From: a virus
Virus record (IMG/VR): IMGVR_UViG_3300025087_000080
Location: 1 to 56,733 of that record
Length of the DNA stretch: 56,733 bases
Strand: one strand, 5' to 3'
The notes under the pieces were generated by a model that was not told where the DNA came from, made no database searches, and worked only from the letters and a program-made list of their open reading frames with translations. The position numbers and the translations under genes are program-made. Positions within the stretch are counted from its first letter, which is position 1; every line of letters starts with the position of its first letter. Shown here in pieces: positions 12,801 through 48,210 of this stretch.

Positions 12801-14420
12801 GCTGTTTACCATGTCACGGGGAAAAATATCAGGAAGCAAATAGAGGCAATGTCTGATATTCAGAAGAGTAACTTCTGGAGGGTTGCGAATCCCAAGAGAG
12901 TCGCTTCTGTGGTGCTTGATTATATGAGTAAGGCGAATGACGTATTTGAACAGGCAACGCGTATTCAGGAATTTACCAAAGGTGCTAAAAAAGCCACAAC
13001 GTATGATGATATTCTGATTGCCAGGCTGAACAGCAAGGATGTTACTGTTGATTTTAGTAGGGGTGGTGATGTCGGGAAAGCGACTAATGATTTTGTCCCG
13101 TTTTTTAACGCAGGGATTCAGGGTACAGACGTGCTTATTCGGAAAATGATAGCACACCCTGTAAGAACAACATCTAAAATGATAGCACTTACAACATTCC
13201 CCGCAATTATGATCCAATTACGCATCCTTACTGATGAGGATTATACCAGAGATTATTTTGAGAATCACCATTCATACGAACGGGATATAAAGTGGCTAAT
13301 CCCGTTAGGGAAACAAGTGAACCCTGTGACAGGTGAGATAGAGGTCGATTGGTTATCATTACCCAAGCCTCCCGGCCCGCTTGCAGGGGAATCGGTATTG
13401 ACGGAACGGTTTGTGCAATGGCTAGCTTACTGTGCGAATAAAAACATCCTCGGAATTTCAGAAAATGAGATTCATCGTGATTTAATTTGGGATGATATTG
13501 CTCGCACACTGATAACACAAACAGCTACATTTGGGATAGGTGGACTATCTGACCTGTTCCCGACAACGGTCGGAACTGCGGTAGGTCTAATGCATGATAC
13601 CGACCCCTTCAGGGGAATCCCGATTGAGGGGTACAAAAGAGAAAAATACGCAAAGCCGGATATTGTTAAGGGCAGTACTAGTGAGATAGCGATTGCGCTG
13701 GGTCAGAGTTTTCCCATTCGGGATAAGGTTGATATTTCTCCTGCGGAGATTGATTTCATTCTTGAACACCAATTCTCCTCGTGGGGAAAAACGGCAATGG
13801 GGATATCTAATTTTCTTGCCGTCCATTACGGAGATCGTGCAGCTCCTCCCCGTGAAAGTGTTGTGCGTAGTGTGCCTATTATCAATCGGTTCGTGGCTCA
13901 ACGGTCAAAGGGGTTGGGGATTCCGTTGATAACAGGATTTATTGAGGATTGGAAAGATTTTAGTAGGTCTTACAATTCTCTGATGGAAAATGCGGGGGTT
14001 GAATGGGATCGCAAGGAAAAGGGATTAACCTATAAAACAAAGCCAAACACAAAGCGGATAGAACAGATTCTGCGCAATGACGGCGTGGTTTTGTTCGGAA
14101 CCAATGTGAAGTTAGATAAGCTGGAAAATGGCACCTATGACAGCAGGCAGGTTGAGGGATTGTTAATGCTTGCACATGAACAGTATATGTTCAGGAGTGA
14201 TGTTGAGAAGATGGTCTCCGAGGCATACGATTTAAGCAAGGATATTTTGGAGGATTTAGATGTTGAGGGGAACCCAGCAAAGTACACCAAGGAGCAGAAG
14301 CGAGAAATGATTGACCAGATTGTAAGCAGGGCATCGAGAGAGGTTGCCGGCTACAAGTTGAAGAAAGAAGAATTGATTAAAAACTACAAAAAGATATTTG
14401 AAGAAAAGGGGTTAAAATGA
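9837..14420 (+). CDS. Giant internal virion or ejection protein (large polyvalent type)
   Basis: 1,527 residues, the largest product. After a disordered, Pro-rich N-terminus there is an apolar stretch (~residues 120-250; AGTIAGAKDFAALVSQTILP) and then mostly long helices. Around residue 928 is NPAFTMMNYTRDQ and around 1084 NDFVPFFNAGIQG. These resemble the NPxF..N..RD and PFFNA..QG signatures of large polyvalent proteins and T7 gp16-like ejection proteins. No lytic transglycosylase motif was found. Its likely role is release from the capsid with the DNA to form a channel across the cell envelope. The gene overlaps its 3' neighbour by four bases (ATGA). Confidence 0.65.
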   Translation: MSFTKDEIRYYLRYKQDKASLSTEEKSALASALKREGRTPRKKSGVKPSEDLSVPFAERVTETTLSLPPLSREAQEKQKEIEAQQLLTQNVPFPPVPEETTITPVPLVTPQVIMEEKRVRTEARIAGTIAGAKDFAALVSQTILPINPLQIPAAIVARPMIEADVAAAPYRKTKNLDAILQAHLERVGNPKIYDQGYIDKLSEELSITATDAQRLTDAVLRAAPSVVAAIATTGLSVAYDAMASAVLEGVIPPTREQIAKAASLPERPSWMPPELAARLTNAGIYGALGVLSIRPFADKLLRGMAAKNQINQKIADQYIRRLDDERMIETAKEKAVVDRLEKHKAKLTEDYGFDISESATEAVRVGDFKRYGLSEEIDFFVKNNFGDETINNKILIERLEDSRVRSEVREAYIKRLFKDTDSPEAHEARVNWMRQFALPQMLREEKLRIARQSGLRNAVEWIEHPDGLEAIARENATALAVLDKAKNTAVRLGDDVTLTRLTSIADEAKRSREIKDLNEMFDSTLLHPGTGELTEAGEVIKKQLDDKLIVGDSVTKSELEDAVKMRTKGVKRPLKERLKETAESLYTEMVSRLTPLEKLGRLNKMVNVRARLYADYPQVVDNMVNHSIGKVVVKNGQWWYEKVTDGLLKILDPIKEDIDTFFRYGLMKRAIELSERETPISLGIDVMKARSLTARLDATDPRLAKIHGEYVKAMHFLVDSSVESGVLSREAGEAMKNSNAFYVPARRVIDEAFSNSGIGKNGIPFKKIEGSKRPIDNPLYHSMMNMAMVVRKNQQNLLLQEVVKAAESLGEEGRWIARRIAKQDVLEPSDLNRIRDKVVELGVDGFDKNTVDALSDEAIQAMANWVEPFSAAGVNRVIIRHDGVGELWEIAPKLYNALYNGNPDRGLIYNILATASGAKILRGTATQYNPAFTMMNYTRDQITAGVLSEENYIPFYDGAKGMFRILKNKLGIRDGIYETYRALGGGQDAVYHVTGKNIRKQIEAMSDIQKSNFWRVANPKRVASVVLDYMSKANDVFEQATRIQEFTKGAKKATTYDDILIARLNSKDVTVDFSRGGDVGKATNDFVPFFNAGIQGTDVLIRKMIAHPVRTTSKMIALTTFPAIMIQLRILTDEDYTRDYFENHHSYERDIKWLIPLGKQVNPVTGEIEVDWLSLPKPPGPLAGESVLTERFVQWLAYCANKNILGISENEIHRDLIWDDIARTLITQTATFGIGGLSDLFPTTVGTAVGLMHDTDPFRGIPIEGYKREKYAKPDIVKGSTSEIAIALGQSFPIRDKVDISPAEIDFILEHQFSSWGKTAMGISNFLAVHYGDRAAPPRESVVRSVPIINRFVAQRSKGLGIPLITGFIEDWKDFSRSYNSLMENAGVEWDRKEKGLTYKTKPNTKRIEQILRNDGVVLFGTNVKLDKLENGTYDSRQVEGLLMLAHEQYMFRSDVEKMVSEAYDLSKDILEDLDVEGNPAKYTKEQKREMIDQIVSRASREVAGYKLKKEELIKNYKKIFEEKGLK

Positions 14421-24817: not shown

Positions 24818-25642
24818 TTATTGTAGTAATCGAGCTAATCTTGTAAGCCCGATCCCGCCTCCAAACCGAGGTACCATAGGCAGGGCGAGGTACTGCTCTA
24901 GTTCTCGCTCTACTCTTGCCTCCCCAAACTTCTCAAACAGTAGGTTAGCGTACTCTCCGTCCGATACCGTGTAGAAGTTCTGTCTCATTTGTTCTGGATC
25001 GGTAGAGCGTTCAGCAGATCCTATGGTTTCCATTCCGTTCAGAATCACGTCGCATTTTGCGTAATTTCCGTCTTCATATCTTTTTATGTTCCAAAAGGGG
25101 TGAGACCTTTGCGGGGAGCCTACTAAAAATACAGTACCTCCATAATCTTTCAGGGTCATAGCTTCATGCTCTGCTTCAATAATTGAAGTGTTATATCGAG
25201 TGCATAATTCATTGTAGTATTTTATATGGCGGACAAAACTGTAGGGAAGTTCTAAATCCCATCCTAAAAAGTCAAGAAGATCTGCTTCTAAATGCAACAA
25301 ATCGGATATTGTCCCAAACGATTCAAATTCAAACATAGGGAAGATTAGATCGTGTCTTCCCGCGATAGGGTTTTCTTCGTTCCTGTAACTCGTTGTGATA
25401 CAGAACACTCCTGCTTCATTTTTAGCATTTGTTAGGAGCTCTTGTTCGAGCCACATTTGTCCGGTCTGCGGAAGCGGATAGAGCTGATTTCTGAAATTGA
25501 AAGTAGAGATAGTCTTCGGGTCTTCACAGGTAGCCAAGATGGAAAGGCGAGACTGTGCAGGAACTTCTATGAAGTTGAGTCTGGTGGAGAAAAAAGCTCT
25601 CAGGCTTTTAACTATTTTGTTGTAGGTGAAGATGTCATTCAT
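24818..25642 (-). CDS. Class II aminoacyl-tRNA-synthetase-fold protein (AsnA / AsnRS-like)
   Basis: 274 residues from ATG 25642 (AGAGGA eight bases upstream). It is a bare catalytic domain. Motif 2-like segment: TTSYRNEENPIAGRHDLIF then MFEFES. Motif 3: RFGGGIGLTRLARLL. VFLVGSPQRSHPFWNIKRY resembles the AsnA core. There is no anticodon-binding domain. Known relatives include asparagine synthetase A and archaeal AsnRS-like asparagine synthetases, which activate aspartate as an adenylate and amidate it. A tRNA-independent amino-acid ligase is therefore more likely than a tRNA synthetase. The substrate here is open. Confidence 0.65.
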   Translation of the reverse strand: MNDIFTYNKIVKSLRAFFSTRLNFIEVPAQSRLSILATCEDPKTISTFNFRNQLYPLPQTGQMWLEQELLTNAKNEAGVFCITTSYRNEENPIAGRHDLIFPMFEFESFGTISDLLHLEADLLDFLGWDLELPYSFVRHIKYYNELCTRYNTSIIEAEHEAMTLKDYGGTVFLVGSPQRSHPFWNIKRYEDGNYAKCDVILNGMETIGSAERSTDPEQMRQNFYTVSDGEYANLLFEKFGEARVERELEQYLALPMVPRFGGGIGLTRLARLLQ

Positions 25643-25786
25643 CTTAATCCTCTTTATCAAGTGTGGTGGAACGATTGTTCGCCTAAAACTTCGCTACGCT
25701 TTAAGCGAGGCACATAGAAGCGTAGATTGTGTTTAACCTGTCACCTTTTTTTACCCCGCTAAAAAGTATCGCTACAGGGCTTAATT
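25643..25786. other. Gap without recognised gene
   Basis: I see no credible coding region here. The minus strand contains GCTTAAAGCGTAGCGAAG, suggesting small dyads, but nothing I would name. Confidence 0.4.
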
Positions 25787-33687: not shown

Positions 33688-33918
33688 CTACTCCCTCCCA
33701 TCAATAAATTTTTTGAAACTGTCATACCAGGGGCTCTTTATTCCCACCCCGTAGGTTTTGCCTCCTGTGGTCGGGGAAGCGTGCCCTCGTTCCCACTCGT
33801 AGAGGGTGTGCTTTGCTGGTGGCTGTGTTCCACGGATCACCGCCAGCCGCAAACCCAACAATTTCCTACTCCCGCACAGTAAGCGGGCGTTTTTTACCTG
33901 TTCCGCTTCAATCCTCAT
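33688..33918 (-). CDS. Small helix-turn-helix-like protein
   Basis: 76 residues. The pattern NARLLCGSRKLLGLRLAVIR then TLYEWERGHASPT resembles an Xre-type HTH (compare ...WE.G...P), somewhat degenerate. It is coupled to the integrase (4-base overlap), so it may regulate integrase or act as an excisionase-like factor. Confidence 0.5.
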   Translation of the reverse strand: MRIEAEQVKNARLLCGSRKLLGLRLAVIRGTQPPAKHTLYEWERGHASPTTGGKTYGVGIKSPWYDSFKKFIDGRE

Positions 33919-34847
33919 ATCAATCCTCCTAACGTGTTGCGCAAGCCTTTAGTCTGCGCGTTATTACTGTCACGGTATTTCATCGTTGTATCGATGTGCT
34001 TGTGCCCTGCATGAATCTGCACCTCTGCGAGCGACAAGCCGCGCTCTGCTGCTATCCTGTCAACCTCTGTGATGGAGGTGTGTCGGATGCCGTGAGGTCT
34101 CAGGTTAATTCCAATCTCTGAGCCATACTGGGACACCATTCTCCAGACAGATGCTCCCGTCATCCGCTGCCCGTATGAATTTGGAGACAGGGAGACGAAC
34201 ACCGCCTCCGCCGTGTCAGGGCTGAGTTTCTTCCACGCCTGGAGAGCTGTGGCTGCGGATTGCGACAGAGGGGTGGTGCTTTTTTCCCTGTGTTTTTTCC
34301 GAGTCACAGCAATTTCTGAGGGATGGATGTTGATCCAGTTGAGGGAGCAAACTTCCTCCCGCCGCAGCCCGAGGTCGAACAGGAGCCTCAGGATTGCATA
34401 ATCCCGAACCCCGCGGACAGTTGCCTGATCCGGCAGGGCAAAGACGTCTCGTAGCTCTCCAATCTCCGGGCCGCGGTTGTCTTTCCGCGGTTCGCTCTGG
34501 ACACCTTTAACAGATAGCCTCCAGGTCGAAACTCCTACCTGGTTAGCGAGATCCATGAGTGAGCGAATCGCCGCCAGCCGCCGGTTGATAACCGAGCTGG
34601 ATGTCCCCGAGTCGATCATGCTGTTGCGGTAGCGCAGAACCAAACCGTTCCCCTCCGCGGATGTGAGACCCAGTAGGGTATCCGCAATTTGCGCGGGGTG
34701 AACCTTGCACCACTCTGCGAACTGTCTGATGTCGCCCTGGTACGCCCGTACGGTTAGAGGGCTCTTGCCTCTGATCCACTCATCCATGAGTGAGGCTTGA
34801 GCCAAGCCCGCCGCTTGCGCTGTTGTAGAGATTAACCCTTTTTCCAT
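33915..34847 (-). CDS. Tyrosine recombinase / integrase
   Basis: 310 residues from ATG 34847, spaced six bases from GAGGAG; an ATG six bases earlier is also possible. The N-terminal SAM-like DNA-binding domain (SPLTVRAYQGDIRQFAEWCK) is followed by the catalytic domain. R is in LGLRREEVCSL, HxxR in HGIRHTSIT, and H plus nucleophile Y in HAGHKHIDTTMKYRD. All catalytic residues seem present. It resembles XerC/D-type recombinases, so it may integrate the phage or resolve genome multimers. A 10-bp inverted repeat lies ~80 bp upstream. Confidence 0.88.
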   Translation of the reverse strand: MEKGLISTTAQAAGLAQASLMDEWIRGKSPLTVRAYQGDIRQFAEWCKVHPAQIADTLLGLTSAEGNGLVLRYRNSMIDSGTSSSVINRRLAAIRSLMDLANQVGVSTWRLSVKGVQSEPRKDNRGPEIGELRDVFALPDQATVRGVRDYAILRLLFDLGLRREEVCSLNWINIHPSEIAVTRKKHREKSTTPLSQSAATALQAWKKLSPDTAEAVFVSLSPNSYGQRMTGASVWRMVSQYGSEIGINLRPHGIRHTSITEVDRIAAERGLSLAEVQIHAGHKHIDTTMKYRDSNNAQTKGLRNTLGGLI

Positions 34848-34929
34848 CTCCATCTCCTCGGTTTGTTCTGTCAATATATTCCCTCCAGGCTGGACTTTCA
34901 AGCCCCGCTGTCCGTCCTCTGGAGCTATA

Positions 34930-34961
34930 AGACCATTTTCCCGGCGTCAGCAAAATGGTCT
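34930..34961. promoter_or_regulatory. Perfect inverted repeat upstream of the integrase
   Basis: AGACCATTTT (34930-34939) and AAAATGGTCT (34952-34961) are separated by 12 bases. It lies between the terminator at 34974 and the integrase start. The layout of ~10-bp arms and a short core resembles a tyrosine-recombinase crossover site or a regulator operator. No att core can be confirmed without the bacterial site. Confidence 0.4.
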
Positions 34962-35502: not shown

Positions 35503-35943
35503 CTACTCCTCTTCGTAAGGGCGTCCTGTAGGACAGACTGTCCATGGACGCAGGTGGTAATCCGCAACAACCACCTCCCGTTCCTCGCGCCAGAGGGTGA
35601 CGCAGCCAACTGTGAATGCTATGTCGGCAACGTTAACATCCTGCTTGATAACAATTTCACCCCACTTGCGAGCGAACTCGTAAGAAAGAGTCCAACTTGT
35701 CAGGTGCTGAATGGAGACACGGTCAACGGCGACAGGGTGGCCCGCATCAATTTCGCCTCTGTTCACACCGCGCCAGAGGGTGACGCAGCCAACTTTTGTC
35801 GACAACGGGAATAGCCGTTTAAAACCGGCGATCCCCTCCTCAGCGTACAGCTCTAATGCGGGTCTGAGGTTACCGGTCGCCCACGCATAGATGTATCTCA
35901 CGTGTGGCGTGACCTGGATAGGCCATGATTCCCTCGATCTCAT
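35503..35943 (-). CDS. Putative mono-ADP-ribosyltransferase with internal duplication
   Basis: 146 residues from ATG 35943 (GGAGCAGGA upstream). The R-S-E layout of ADP-ribosyltransferases is visible: R58 in VTLWRGV, S in LTSWTLSYEFARKWG (82-96), and E121-x-E123 in EEREVVV. Such phage enzymes transfer ADP-ribose from NAD to host proteins such as RNA polymerase. The segment VGCVTLWR occurs twice (51-58 and 112-119), encoded by an exact 25-bp direct repeat (35586-35610 and 35769-35793). The second copy abuts the ExE motif. The call rests on motif spacing only. Confidence 0.5.
   Translation of the reverse strand: MRSRESWPIQVTPHVRYIYAWATGNLRPALELYAEEGIAGFKRLFPLSTKVGCVTLWRGVNRGEIDAGHPVAVDRVSIQHLTSWTLSYEFARKWGEIVIKQDVNVADIAFTVGCVTLWREEREVVVADYHLRPWTVCPTGRPYEEE
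35586..35793. repeat. 25-bp direct repeat inside the putative ART gene
   Basis: 35586-35610 and 35769-35793 are identical. Both are read in the same frame and encode VGCVTLWR. Exact identity at the DNA level implies recent duplication or gene conversion. Confidence 0.9.
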
Positions 35944-35969
35944 TTTCCTGCTCCTTTGGTTGTGTTTCA

Positions 35970-35985
35970 GCCGGCACCCGCCGGC
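35970..35985 (-). promoter_or_regulatory. Leader hairpin 1 (GCCGGC family)
   Basis: On the minus strand GCCGGC-GGGT-GCCGGC, ending 27 bases before ATG 35943 and just upstream of the ribosome binding site. Part of a set of four; see 36424, 36752 and 37114. Confidence 0.7.
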
Positions 35986-36029
35986 TCCTGTGACTCCCCT
36001 CGCGGGGAGATCCACTCATCTACAGTTTT

Positions 36030-36398
36030 CTATACCACCGTGTACGTGTAAAACATCACTGTAGTTGTGAACTTTATAGGGGCTATGTCAGCCTCATATC
36101 GTTCACATATTTTATTATTAAGCGTAAGTACTAACGCTGTTTCGAGGAGTCTTTTTACCTCCTCTGGATTGTACCCAGTTATACTTAAAGTATTGTCTTC
36201 ATACACGAAGACTTTCGTATCCGTGGAAGACGACCAAGTATCCAACTGTAACGTCATTGGATACTGCTGTTCCGTTGTCTTTATCCAACTAAAAAACTTT
36301 TTTAGCTGGATAACTTCTAACCATTCTTGGTTAACAGGCATACTTGCCTTGACAAGGAATACAACACCCTTCTTGTTTTCATCAAAGTAAAACTTCAT
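36030..36398 (-). CDS. Hypothetical early protein
   Basis: 122 residues from ATG 36398 (AAGGAG upstream). It is mixed alpha/beta; an N-terminal segment FYFDENKKGVVFLVKASMPV and a helix PEEVKRLLETALVLTL are apparent. It belongs to the run of small leader-hairpin genes. No family recognised. Confidence 0.5.
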   Translation of the reverse strand: MKFYFDENKKGVVFLVKASMPVNQEWLEVIQLKKFFSWIKTTEQQYPMTLQLDTWSSSTDTKVFVYEDNTLSITGYNPEEVKRLLETALVLTLNNKICERYEADIAPIKFTTTVMFYTYTVV

Positions 36399-36423
36399 TT
36401 TTCCACTCCTTTTTCGGTTCCCC

Positions 36424-36439
36424 GCCGGCACCCGCCGGC
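36424..36439 (-). promoter_or_regulatory. Leader hairpin 2 (GCCGGC family)
   Basis: GCCGGC-GGGT-GCCGGC on the minus strand, 26 bases before ATG 36398. It follows the tRNA-like minihelix at 36447. Confidence 0.7.
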
Positions 36440-36446
36440 TCTTCGC

Positions 36447-36487
36447 TCCCCGCCGAGGAGTTGAACCTCGGATACACCAAGCGGGGA
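36447..36487 (-). ncRNA. tRNA-like minihelix (acceptor plus T-arm)
   Basis: On the minus strand TCCCCGC and GCGGGGA form a perfect 7-bp acceptor-like stem. Between them CGAGG-TTCAACT-CCTCG forms a 5-bp T-stem with a canonical 7-base T-loop. Only 10 bases (TTGGTGTATC) remain where the D and anticodon arms should be. This could be a tRNA remnant left by an integration or deletion event, or a structured leader of the 36398 gene. It cannot decode. Confidence 0.5.
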
Positions 36488-36497
36488 GATCCGCTCT

Positions 36498-36728
36498 CTA
36501 GAGCTCGTCAGACAGGAAAAACTGCCCGTCAGCAAAGACATAGACTCTATCCTCTGAGTCTTTGATCGATATAAATCTTGAAAAGATCCCGCCGCAAGAA
36601 CAATCAGACATTCCGCATAACTTGTTGTCTGCGCGTTTTATACTCCGAGCCGACATTGTCATCGACTCTGTTGATACCACAACACTCGCGGAAGTGTTGT
36701 GGAAAGTATTTTCAATGGTCAACTTCAT
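36498..36728 (-). CDS. Hypothetical early protein
   Basis: 76 residues. ATG 36728 is preferred because GAGGAG is six bases upstream; an in-frame ATG at 36734 is possible. The product is beta-rich with a central CGMSDCSCGGIFSRFISI that could bind zinc. Preceded by leader hairpin 3. Function unknown. Confidence 0.5.
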   Translation of the reverse strand: MKLTIENTFHNTSASVVVSTESMTMSARSIKRADNKLCGMSDCSCGGIFSRFISIKDSEDRVYVFADGQFFLSDEL

Positions 36729-36751
36729 TTTCATCTCCTCGTTGTTTTTCC

Positions 36752-36767
36752 GCCGGCACCCGCCGGC
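36752..36767 (-). promoter_or_regulatory. Leader hairpin 3 (GCCGGC family)
   Basis: GCCGGC-GGGT-GCCGGC on the minus strand, 24 bases before ATG 36728. Confidence 0.7.
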
Positions 36768-36778
36768 TTTAGTTCCCC

Positions 36779-37084: not shown

Positions 37085-37113
37085 TTTCCAATCTCCTTTT
37101 TTTCGTTTTCCTC

Positions 37114-37129
37114 GCCGGCATCCGCCGGC
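37114..37129 (-). promoter_or_regulatory. Leader hairpin 4 (GCCGGC family)
   Basis: GCCGGC-GGAT-GCCGGC on the minus strand. It begins about ten bases after the -10 box of the promoter at 37140, so it would lie at the extreme 5' end of the transcript, where such hairpins can stabilise mRNA. Confidence 0.7.
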
Positions 37130-37139
37130 TTGTTGATCC

Positions 37140-37168
37140 AAGATACTCATTAGCATATTGCCTGTCAA
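37140..37168 (-). promoter_or_regulatory. Early promoter A
   Basis: TTGACA (37168-37163), 17-bp spacer, TATCTT (37145-37140), reading leftward. The -35 box is consensus for sigma70. It shares the upstream CTCTCGAGGAGA-like block and the sequence after -10 (TATCTTGGATCAA) with promoters at 38894 and 39343. Confidence 0.8.
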
Positions 37169-37172
37169 TAGC

Positions 37173-37454
37173 CTATCTCTCCTCGAGACTCTCCTCGGCC
37201 TGCGCACCGCCGTCCGCTCCCCGCAGCCTGGTATACCCAGCGATTAGCTGCTGAATAATCGGATCCGCCGCCGCAGGCTCGGAGAAGAGACTCTCCTGGT
37301 GAGCGTTATCCACAGGCAAGAGCCGATAGTACGGATTAAACGCCTCCGCGAGAGCCGCCGCCGTCCGCCTGCTGGGAGACAACTCGTACTCCCGCCGGGC
37401 GAGCCTGAAAGCCTCAATAATAGCCTCCTCAGAGGTTAGGTTCTTAAAGTTCAT
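37173..37454 (-). CDS. Hypothetical helical early protein
   Basis: 93 residues, Ala/Glu/Arg-rich and helical (EEAIIEAFRLARREYELSPS; RTAAALAEAFNPYYRLLPV). It overlaps the 37454 gene by one base. Its 3' end contains the upstream block of promoter A. No family recognised. Confidence 0.5.
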   Translation of the reverse strand: MNFKNLTSEEAIIEAFRLARREYELSPSRRTAAALAEAFNPYYRLLPVDNAHQESLFSEPAAADPIIQQLIAGYTRLRGADGGAQAEESLEER

Positions 37455-38032
37455 CAGAAAGGTACCTCGTTGAGGGGAACCTTGCTCTTCTGCTTCACCT
37501 TATAGCAACGTCCAGTCTCGTAAGTCTCCGTCTCTATACTGTTAGAGACTGGTATTTTCGTTCCGAGGGACTCGAGAGCGTCCAGGAGATCACTTTCGAA
37601 CGGGTTGCGTATCAACCCCGCCTCAAAAGCGGCTTGCGCTACAAGGTCAAAAGCTACAGCGTTAGAGTTAGTCCTGGAGGTACGAAACCGCGGCGGGATT
37701 CGTTTATACTCATCAGCAATTCCCCCCCCGCTACGGATCAGTATAGGAGCAACTTTGCCACCATACTCTCGCCTTAACCAGGACTCGAGCTCGCTAACAG
37801 TATCGGAGCGAGAAACGGTGTTCTCGCGCACTAAAAAAGCAGGGAGAGAAGAGTTCCTGTCTTCCTGCTTTAACCAATAAGCCCTATATTTAGGGCTATA
37901 GACAAAGCCGCTATCTATAGCAACTTGCTTATCAAAGCCACCTCGTAACCACAGGAGATTGCCGACTCTGTGAACTATATACCTACAGTTCACCCGCCGC
38001 GCTGTAGACCTACTCCAAGGCTTGTCTTTCAT
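37454..38032 (-). CDS. Hypothetical early protein downstream of the hammerhead
   Basis: 192 residues. The basic N-terminus (KPWSRSTARRVNCRYIVHRV) and a following FDKQVAIDSGFVYSPKYRAY suggest a small nucleic-acid-associated domain. The C-terminal part is mixed. Its mRNA leader would begin at the hammerhead cleavage point, ~27 bases before the start. No family recognised. Confidence 0.5.
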   Translation of the reverse strand: MKDKPWSRSTARRVNCRYIVHRVGNLLWLRGGFDKQVAIDSGFVYSPKYRAYWLKQEDRNSSLPAFLVRENTVSRSDTVSELESWLRREYGGKVAPILIRSGGGIADEYKRIPPRFRTSRTNSNAVAFDLVAQAAFEAGLIRNPFESDLLDALESLGTKIPVSNSIETETYETGRCYKVKQKSKVPLNEVPF

Positions 38033-38047
38033 CTCTCTATTCCTATT

Positions 38048-38123
38048 TTAGTTTCCTGTAAGCATCCCTTGTGAGAGGGATGCTTTCGGCCCGGTACCGC
38101 CGAGCACTCATCAGACAGGCTAA
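38048..38123 (-). ncRNA. Type I hammerhead ribozyme, intercistronic
   Basis: Read leftward, all core parts are present. Stem I is TTAG+CCTGT (38123-38115) pairing with ACAGG...CTAA (38059-38055, 38051-38048) around an AAA bulge. Core CTGATGA is 38114-38108. Stem II is G-C plus GCTCGG/CCGGGC with one bulged T (38107-38088). Core GAAA is 38087-38084. Stem III is GCATCCC/GGGATGC (38083-38077, 38068-38062) closed by A15.1-U16.1. The predicted cleavage is after 38060 (triplet CUU). It fits precisely between the stop of the 38120 gene and the ribosome binding site of the 38032 gene, so cleavage would separate the two messages. Confidence 0.8.
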
Positions 38124-38553: not shown

Positions 38554-38600
38554 CTCATTCTCCTTTAGGTTAGCAGGCTTCTTGAACCAAGATACTCATT

Positions 38601-38852: not shown

Positions 38853-38893
38853 TTCCTACTCCTCTTAGGTTGTTGTTGAACTACTGTTGAACC

Positions 38894-38922
38894 AAGATAC
38901 TCTCTGCTATATTGCGAGTCAA
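38894..38922 (-). promoter_or_regulatory. Early promoter C
   Basis: TTGACT (38922-38917), 17-bp spacer, TATCTT (38899-38894), leftward. The spacer begins CGCAATATAG, nearly as in promoters A and D. The upstream block CTCTCGAGGAGAC lies 17-30 bases before the -35. Confidence 0.8.
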
Positions 38923-38952
38923 TACCTACTCTGTCTCCTCGAGAGACCAGGA

Positions 38953-39297: not shown

Positions 39298-39342
39298 TTT
39301 CCATCTCCTCGGTTGTTGGGTTAGCCTCTCTAACCCTGATGT

Positions 39343-39371
39343 AAGGTACTGCTCTGTGTATTGCGAGTCAA
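39343..39371 (-). promoter_or_regulatory. Early promoter D
   Basis: TTGACT (39371-39366), 17-bp spacer, TACCTT (39348-39343), leftward towards the ParB-like gene. It is preceded by tandem GAGAGTCTCGAT repeats (about 39380-39418) related to the upstream block of promoters A and C. Confidence 0.75.
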
Positions 39372-39516
39372 TACCCTGTCTCTCATCGAGACTCTCATCG
39401 AGACTCTCCTCGAGAGACCAGCCCCACCAGCGTTACTAATTTAGACTCTGTCTTACCTTAGACTCTGTCTAAACTAAATCTATACTATTTAGTAAGGATT
39501 TATCAGCACGCCCCCT

Positions 39517-47690: not shown

Positions 47691-48125
47691 ATGAACGACA
47701 ATAGATTTAAGTGTAAGATCATCTGCGATGCCGTTGATTCCCTGATCCTGATAGAGGGAATCGCTACCAAATATGACCCATGGAATTTCAACGGGCACAA
47801 GGACTATCTGCGTGAGTTGTTCCGATGTATCGAAATCCATTGCCTCAAGAACGCAGATTACACGGGTGGCGGGGATGACGACGATCCGCTCGCAAATTTC
47901 AAAGATTCCGAAAAATACGGTGTCGAGAATGTGACAGGGATTTTCCTACGCATGGGTGACAAGATGCGCAGGCTTCAGACGTTTTCTCGCAACGGAAAAC
48001 TGTCTGTTCAGGGTGAAACCGTTAAGGATGCGCTAAGGGATATAGCTAATTACTCCTTGCTTGCTTTGGCGATGATTGATGAACAGGAGGAGGAAAGTAT
48101 TCAGGATGAAATCTCGAATGACTGA
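47691..48125 (+). CDS. Nmad1 (DUF1599)-like protein
   Basis: 144 residues. DYTGGGDDDDPLANFKDSEK, VTGIFLRMGDKMRRLQTF and VKDALRDIANYSLLALAMID follow the nucleotide-modification-associated domain 1 pattern. Family members often occur in phages with modified nucleotides or next to methyltransferases, as here. The biochemical activity is not established to my knowledge. It is helical, and the D/N-rich loops could bind metal. Confidence 0.65.
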   Translation: MNDNRFKCKIICDAVDSLILIEGIATKYDPWNFNGHKDYLRELFRCIEIHCLKNADYTGGGDDDDPLANFKDSEKYGVENVTGIFLRMGDKMRRLQTFSRNGKLSVQGETVKDALRDIANYSLLALAMIDEQEEESIQDEISND

Positions 48126-48210
48126 CCATTTTGCTGACGCCGGGAAAATGATCTATGCGTGCAGATGTAACAACGGCAAGATTCCTGAACAAGAAATCTT
48201 ATTCCTATAG
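48118..48210 (+). CDS. 30-residue hypothetical protein
   Basis: MTDHFADAGKMIYACRCNNG then KIPEQEILFL and stop. The ATG overlaps the Nmad1-like gene end by eight bases, and AGGA lies about ten bases upstream. Two cysteines (CRC) are present. Weak evidence. Confidence 0.35.
   Translation: MTDHFADAGKMIYACRCNNGKIPEQEILFL

Follow-up and report, generated by a model that had tools for sequence, protein, structure and literature searches.

An intercistronic phage hammerhead of type I and its very probable cutting of an mRNA between two genes

The stretch of DNA analyzed here (the window; all 56,733 nt of the IMG/VR viral record IMGVR_UViG_3300025087_000080) contains a complete type I hammerhead on its minus strand (38119-38046), and this phage ribozyme very probably cuts its own mRNA between two genes. 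Judged by its sequence, the element is a member of a phage type I subfamily in which stem II carries a bulged U and loop II forms a pseudoknot with the 3' tail.

Structure of the hammerhead element

On the minus strand from 38122 to 38046, the locus reads UAG CCUGU CUGAUGA G U GCUCG GCGGUAC CGGGC C GAA A GCAUCCC ... GGGAUGC U U ACAGG AAACUAAAA (Table 1). Three stems surround the core, stems II and III are closed by loops and stem I is left open, which is the type I arrangement. The CUGANGA core, the GAA, the A15.1-U16.1 pair, and an NUH site (triplet CUU) are all present. A preliminary description of this DNA had proposed, in a presumed early operon, an intercistronic type I hammerhead with CTGATGA and GAAA cores (found at 38114-38108 and 38087-38084, respectively), a 7-bp stem III with an A-U closure, one bulged T in stem II (U38106), and stem I as the open end; core, stems, family models, and placement all agree with it. 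In an energy-only fold of the locus, the three-way junction was the minimum free energy structure (-29.6 kcal/mol, z -2.2).

A strict-core scan of both strands of the window returned this locus as its single match. In simulations with the dinucleotide make-up of the window, a relaxed hammerhead motif arises in random sequence at a rate of about 0.001 per window length, and the expectation for this particular element is lower; motifs with at least 5, 6, and 7 bp in stems I, II, and III were absent from 1.46 Gb of simulated sequence.

Table 1. Features of the hammerhead locus and its surroundings (positions in the window)
Feature	Position	Strand	Remarks
Sigma70-like promoter TTGACT-17-TATCTT	38894..38922	-	Upstream, same operon
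Upstream ORF, 63 aa	38120..38311	-	No family match; TAG stop abuts stem I
Type I hammerhead ribozyme	38046..38122	-	Family-model extent, from stop codon of upstream ORF to pseudoknot tail
Stem I 5' strand CCUGU	38115..38119	-	Pairs with 38055-38059
Catalytic core CUGAUGA (CTGATGA)	38108..38114	-	From sequence
Stem-loop II	38088..38107	-	Bulged U38106 after first pair; 7-nt loop GCGGUAC 38100-38094
Loop II CGGU	38096..38099	-	Predicted pseudoknot partner of 38049-38052, from family covariation
Catalytic GAA	38085..38087	-	GAAA at 38087-38084; A15.1 = 38084
Stem-loop III, A15.1 to U16.1	38061..38084	-	A38084 + GCAUCCC / GGGAUGC + U38061; 8 pairs plus closing U-A
H17 = U, predicted cut immediately 3'	38060	-	
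Stem I 3' strand ACAGG, predicted 5'-OH end of downstream message	38055..38059	-	
Tail ACUA, predicted pseudoknot partner of loop II	38049..38052	-	From family covariation
AGGA, Shine-Dalgarno-like	38041..38044	-	From sequence; putative role
Downstream ORF, 192 aa	37454..38032	-	No family match; ATG at 38032
Sigma70-like promoter	37168-37140	-	

A family of phage relatives

To collect relatives, viral contigs were scanned with the pattern CTGATGAGTGC-N4..22-GCCGAAA, which fixes neither the gap length nor stems I and III. This pattern was present in 55 contigs (37 distinct sequences). The exact 13-nt gap of the window was found in 22 of the 37 distinct matches, every one of which forms a complete hammerhead; matches with other gap lengths were mostly not hammerheads. 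A pattern containing the window's own stem I gave no matches.

A covariance model built from 23 copies, with the window excluded (R1), was then run on the window by cmsearch and detected the element at 53.6 bits (E 1.1e-12). Because the first scan had used the stem II letters of the window, another model (R2) was built only from 19 copies that all lack these letters, and it detected the element at 50.7 bits (E 2.4e-12); the E-values of both models are rough, as calibration was short. The next-best place in the window scored 13.8 bits with R2 and 17.1 bits with R1. The R1 family came from a pattern based on the window element, a dependence that R2 lessens but does not abolish. The second R1 match (13223-13319, plus strand, 17.1 bits) was rejected as a chance hit: GAAC replaces GAAA in it, and it lies within an ORF of 1527 aa.

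In the collected loci, R1 identified 86 copies, 67 of them distinct (window included). The core is CTGATGA in 55 distinct members and CTGACGA in 11, GAAA is present in all 67, and most members have a nucleotide at the bulge position of stem II (U in 41 of the 67). Family copies come in arrays; for example, 4.5 kb of one phage operon (L064, 6305-10800, minus strand) carry seven type I hammerheads, and a copy sits at the majority of gene junctions in this stretch. Phage contigs with type I copies also contain RAGATH-36 (L015, 496-640), RAGATH-16 (L015, 3230-3300), and two type II hammerheads (L017, 2526-3003). In addition, one family member (L067, 1296-1367; 58.3 bits) was found on a contig of a Blautia MAG; this may be prophage DNA from a gut Firmicute.

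Hammerheads of all three types have been described in bacteria and phages, with a pseudoknot in all types (Perreault et al. 2011, PMC3088659). The same study reported multiple copies flanking single genes in prophages, proposed the processing of phage transcripts to mRNAs of single-gene length, and observed in vitro cleavage for 14 of 18 consensus-conforming hammerheads and, within transcripts, for three native arrays (PMC3088659). Since phage hammerheads, their placement, and the processing proposal are already found there, the window element is a known kind of ribozyme. It shares with the prophage and phage type I hammerheads of that study the core, the three stems, the open stem I, the flanking of single genes, and, as a candidate contact only, the pseudoknot that joins loop II to the side of stem I. 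It differs in its CUU triplet, in falling below Rfam detection, and in belonging to a phage for which the searched collections yielded no close relatives. HHphage of haloviruses HF1/HF2, for which a 5' end has been mapped near the cut (PMC3088659), likewise lies shortly before a start codon of a polycistronic viral mRNA; unlike the window element, it has a core variant, belongs to an archaeal virus, and lies 13 nt before the start codon of the first gene of its transcript.

Covariation and the loop II pseudoknot

In the alignment of the 67 distinct copies, pairing is kept in 97.6% of pair cells, and double changes occur at 16 of the 18 pairs. The covariation score of this alignment was reached by none of 500 shuffles, and about one third of positions paired when the pairing partners were slid. 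All five pairs of stem I covary, as do the proximal pairs of stem III.

The alignment was fitted to stems I-III and not to the pseudoknot, which was added afterwards. In the family, nucleotides 2-5 of loop II pair with nucleotides 3-6 after stem I (UGGU/ACCA, UAGU/ACUA, UGGC/GCCA, and UGAU/AUCA are among the combinations), and all four pairs covary. A mean of 3.75 of the four pairs is formed, compared with 3.19 for shuffled tails (maximum 3.38 in 2000). A helix extending stem I outward forms 3.11 bp versus 3.06 bp after shuffling, in the 61 copies with a 7-nt loop II. As the tail covaries with loop II and the outer helix hardly differs from its shuffled control, loop II is the family-wide partner of the tail.

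These results divide the split stem I (5+4 bp) of the preliminary description: its inner part (CCUGU 38119-38115 with ACAGG 38059-38055) stands, with all five pairs covarying, and its outer 4 bp lack family support. Although the outer helix through the stop codon (TTAG/CTAA) is possible on paper, relatives do not conserve it, and it was rejected as a family feature; a part for the stop codon in stem I is likewise unsupported. In the window, the pseudoknot (CGGU/ACUA) would have three of four pairs, one of them G-U, and would compete with UUAG/CUAA.

Placement between genes and proposed function

A stop codon near stem I together with a Shine-Dalgarno-led start at most 100 nt past the cut was found for 82% of the 67 copies, compared with 17% of random places in the same DNA. 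The start is usually 20-40 nt past the cut. In 59 copies, the upstream ORF is 40 codons long or longer; its stop falls within -5 to +9 nt of stem I in 42 of these, and in 16 it is the UGA of the core's CUGA. The window conforms to this placement, with a stop offset of 0 and a start 27 nt past the predicted cut. The coordinates agree with the earlier prediction of a cut after 38060 that leaves a 27-base leader before the 192-aa gene; the earlier statement that the element exactly fills the intergenic gap is correct apart from the final ~16 nt, where the Shine-Dalgarno sequence lies.

Given the motif, family membership, covariation, and conserved placement, from which we infer cleavage, its timing, and its effect on expression, we consider it highly likely that co-transcriptional self-cleavage after U38060 splits a polycistronic phage message into two parts, each with its own ends. 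The ribozyme would be transcribed within the polycistronic mRNA, fold, and cleave itself after U38060. The upstream message would then terminate in stems II and III of the folded ribozyme, with a 2',3'-cyclic phosphate, and the message of the 192-aa protein would start with a 5'-OH and a 27-nt leader carrying the ribosome site. Because the cut would give each side its own ends, the stability and translation of the two messages could differ. From known biology, both new mRNA ends would plausibly be stabilizing; 5'-OH ends are poor triggers of 5'-monophosphate-dependent decay. The separation of two messages suggested in the preliminary description is the likely role, in line with the 2011 proposal (PMC3088659). 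The element thus offers a clear example of a phage ribozyme between cistrons that lends itself to testing, and the tight fit of stop codon, ribozyme, and start allows the role of phage hammerheads to be tested directly.

The same placement bears on a different role for an active ribozyme, namely that its main job is translation-gated switching rather than constitutive message splitting. A ribosome ending at the upstream stop would cover stem I and the core, so that cleavage would occur only when the upstream gene is untranslated, that is, after ribosomes have cleared or failed to arrive. The stop that abuts stem I in the window and the stop positions in relatives, including those on the UGA of the core, are what gating would lead one to expect, but compact phage genomes that squeeze a ribozyme into a gap would give the same positions, and we regard gating as a possible but unlikely main function. 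If it were true, mRNA cutting would be coupled to the termination of translation by a device that is widespread among phages and escapes the RNA library.

Deviations of this copy and sensitivity of Rfam

This copy deviates from its family at several points. Position 17 is C in 60 of the 67 members, A in six, and U in the window copy only, and its G15.2-C16.2 pair is rare in the family. It is a fair expectation that the window copy cuts more slowly than a typical copy. One could go further and suppose that U17, G15.2-C16.2, and the weak pseudoknot mark a genuine family member in decay or slowed down, which processes little RNA and is on its way out. The unique U17, with its CUU triplet, the three-pair pseudoknot with its G-U, an A14-U17 pair that could form and is drawn in the minimum free energy fold, and broken-looking half motifs in the same operon (36.0 and 36.49 kb) would fit such a history. 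However, no core base is lost and all three stems are complete, where neutral decay would be expected to strike the invariant core and stems too, and CUU falls within the NUH cleavage sites known from general hammerhead biochemistry, which include it. We therefore hold decay to be improbable and retain self-cleavage between the two genes as the preferred reading.

The preliminary description had proposed a search with the Rfam hammerhead I model as a check, and this gave no match, even at E 10. At gathering score, Rfam had no hammerhead match at the locus, and a search of 271 bases of the locus with E up to 10 returned no hammerhead and otherwise only matches that are not credible. The window element reached neither the cutoff of RF00163 (Hammerhead_1; 34 bits), which has the same fold and permutation, nor that of RF03152 (RAGATH-1-hammerhead; 56.3 bits), a type I variant like the window element, modelled with a short stem II and an additional hairpin at the 5' side, and it remained unmatched. 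A relative with a perfect core scored 22.3 bits with RF00163 and 24.2 bits with RF03152, below the respective cutoffs of 34 and 56.3 bits, and in 16 loci scanned with Rfam, no type I copy reached the cutoff. The miss is thus explained by the low sensitivity of the library to this subfamily and by the deviations of this copy, and not by absence of the motif. With 67 distinct copies, and up to seven in a 4.5-kb stretch, a sizeable phage subfamily is missed by the standard RNA library, and therefore the annotation of phage genomes understates self-cleaving RNAs. Neither the stop-codon overlap statistics nor the near-total blindness of Rfam to the subfamily was found in the literature searched, which most subscription papers lie outside, and no priority is claimed.

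That the locus is a chance assembly of hairpins resembling a hammerhead, which act as 3'-end stabilizers or as a translation-coupling structure, is extremely improbable in view of the simulation, the R1 and R2 searches, and the family placement, even though intercistronic GC hairpins are common in this operon and Rfam is negative.

The phage and other features of the window

Peptide patterns, which find close relatives only, revealed no relatives of the 192-aa protein, the terminase, or two large proteins in IMG/VR. The 192-aa protein also had no relatives in GTDB genomes or among phages, and a DNA-level search for phage relatives found none near the locus. A DnaB search yielded three loci at 27-34% identity; no ribozyme was present in the DNA searched of these loci or in the whole records L001 and L003.

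Several other features are located on the minus strand of the same region. A possible broken hammerhead at 36440-36519 (R2 13.8 bits, E 0.088) has CCTGTCTGACGAGCTC as its 5' half, with the stem I letters of the intact copy and without GAAA. Another at 35985-36030 consists of GGGGAGTC-ACAGG, corresponding to stem III, a GUC-like site, and the 3' half of stem I, again without GAAA. Four near-identical hairpins, AGCCGGCGGGTGCCGGC, are each located just 5' of a ribosome site (35964-35995, 36418-36449, 36746-36777, and 37108-37139). The hairpin repeat GCCGGC-GGGT-GCCGGC was considered as stem II of further hammerheads and rejected, as no complete core lies alongside. A tRNA-like minihelix with an acceptor-like stem and a T-arm (CCGAGG-TTCAACT-CCTCGG) was observed at 36447-36487; its Rfam match to mascRNA is below cutoff (18.8 bits, E 0.87). 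Moreover, a promoter-like stretch, TTGACnnGCAATA..TATCTTGG, is repeated before several small operon genes (37134-37197, 38573-38600, 38888-38951, and 39337-39400). An ORF at 35503-36015 has a weak match to DRAT (an ADP-ribosyltransferase family; 19.4 bits, below cutoff) and contains two identical 26-bp repeats.

Elsewhere in the window, a phage RNA ligase (PF09414; 28723-29748, minus strand) and a class II tRNA synthetase-like protein (24818-25660, minus strand) are encoded in the same gene block. A 31-nt inverted repeat (34930-34960 and 48124-48154; 97%) has near-palindromic arms, one of which adjoins a tyrosine recombinase gene (33915-34901), and possibly marks a 13.2-kb invertible segment or recombination sites.
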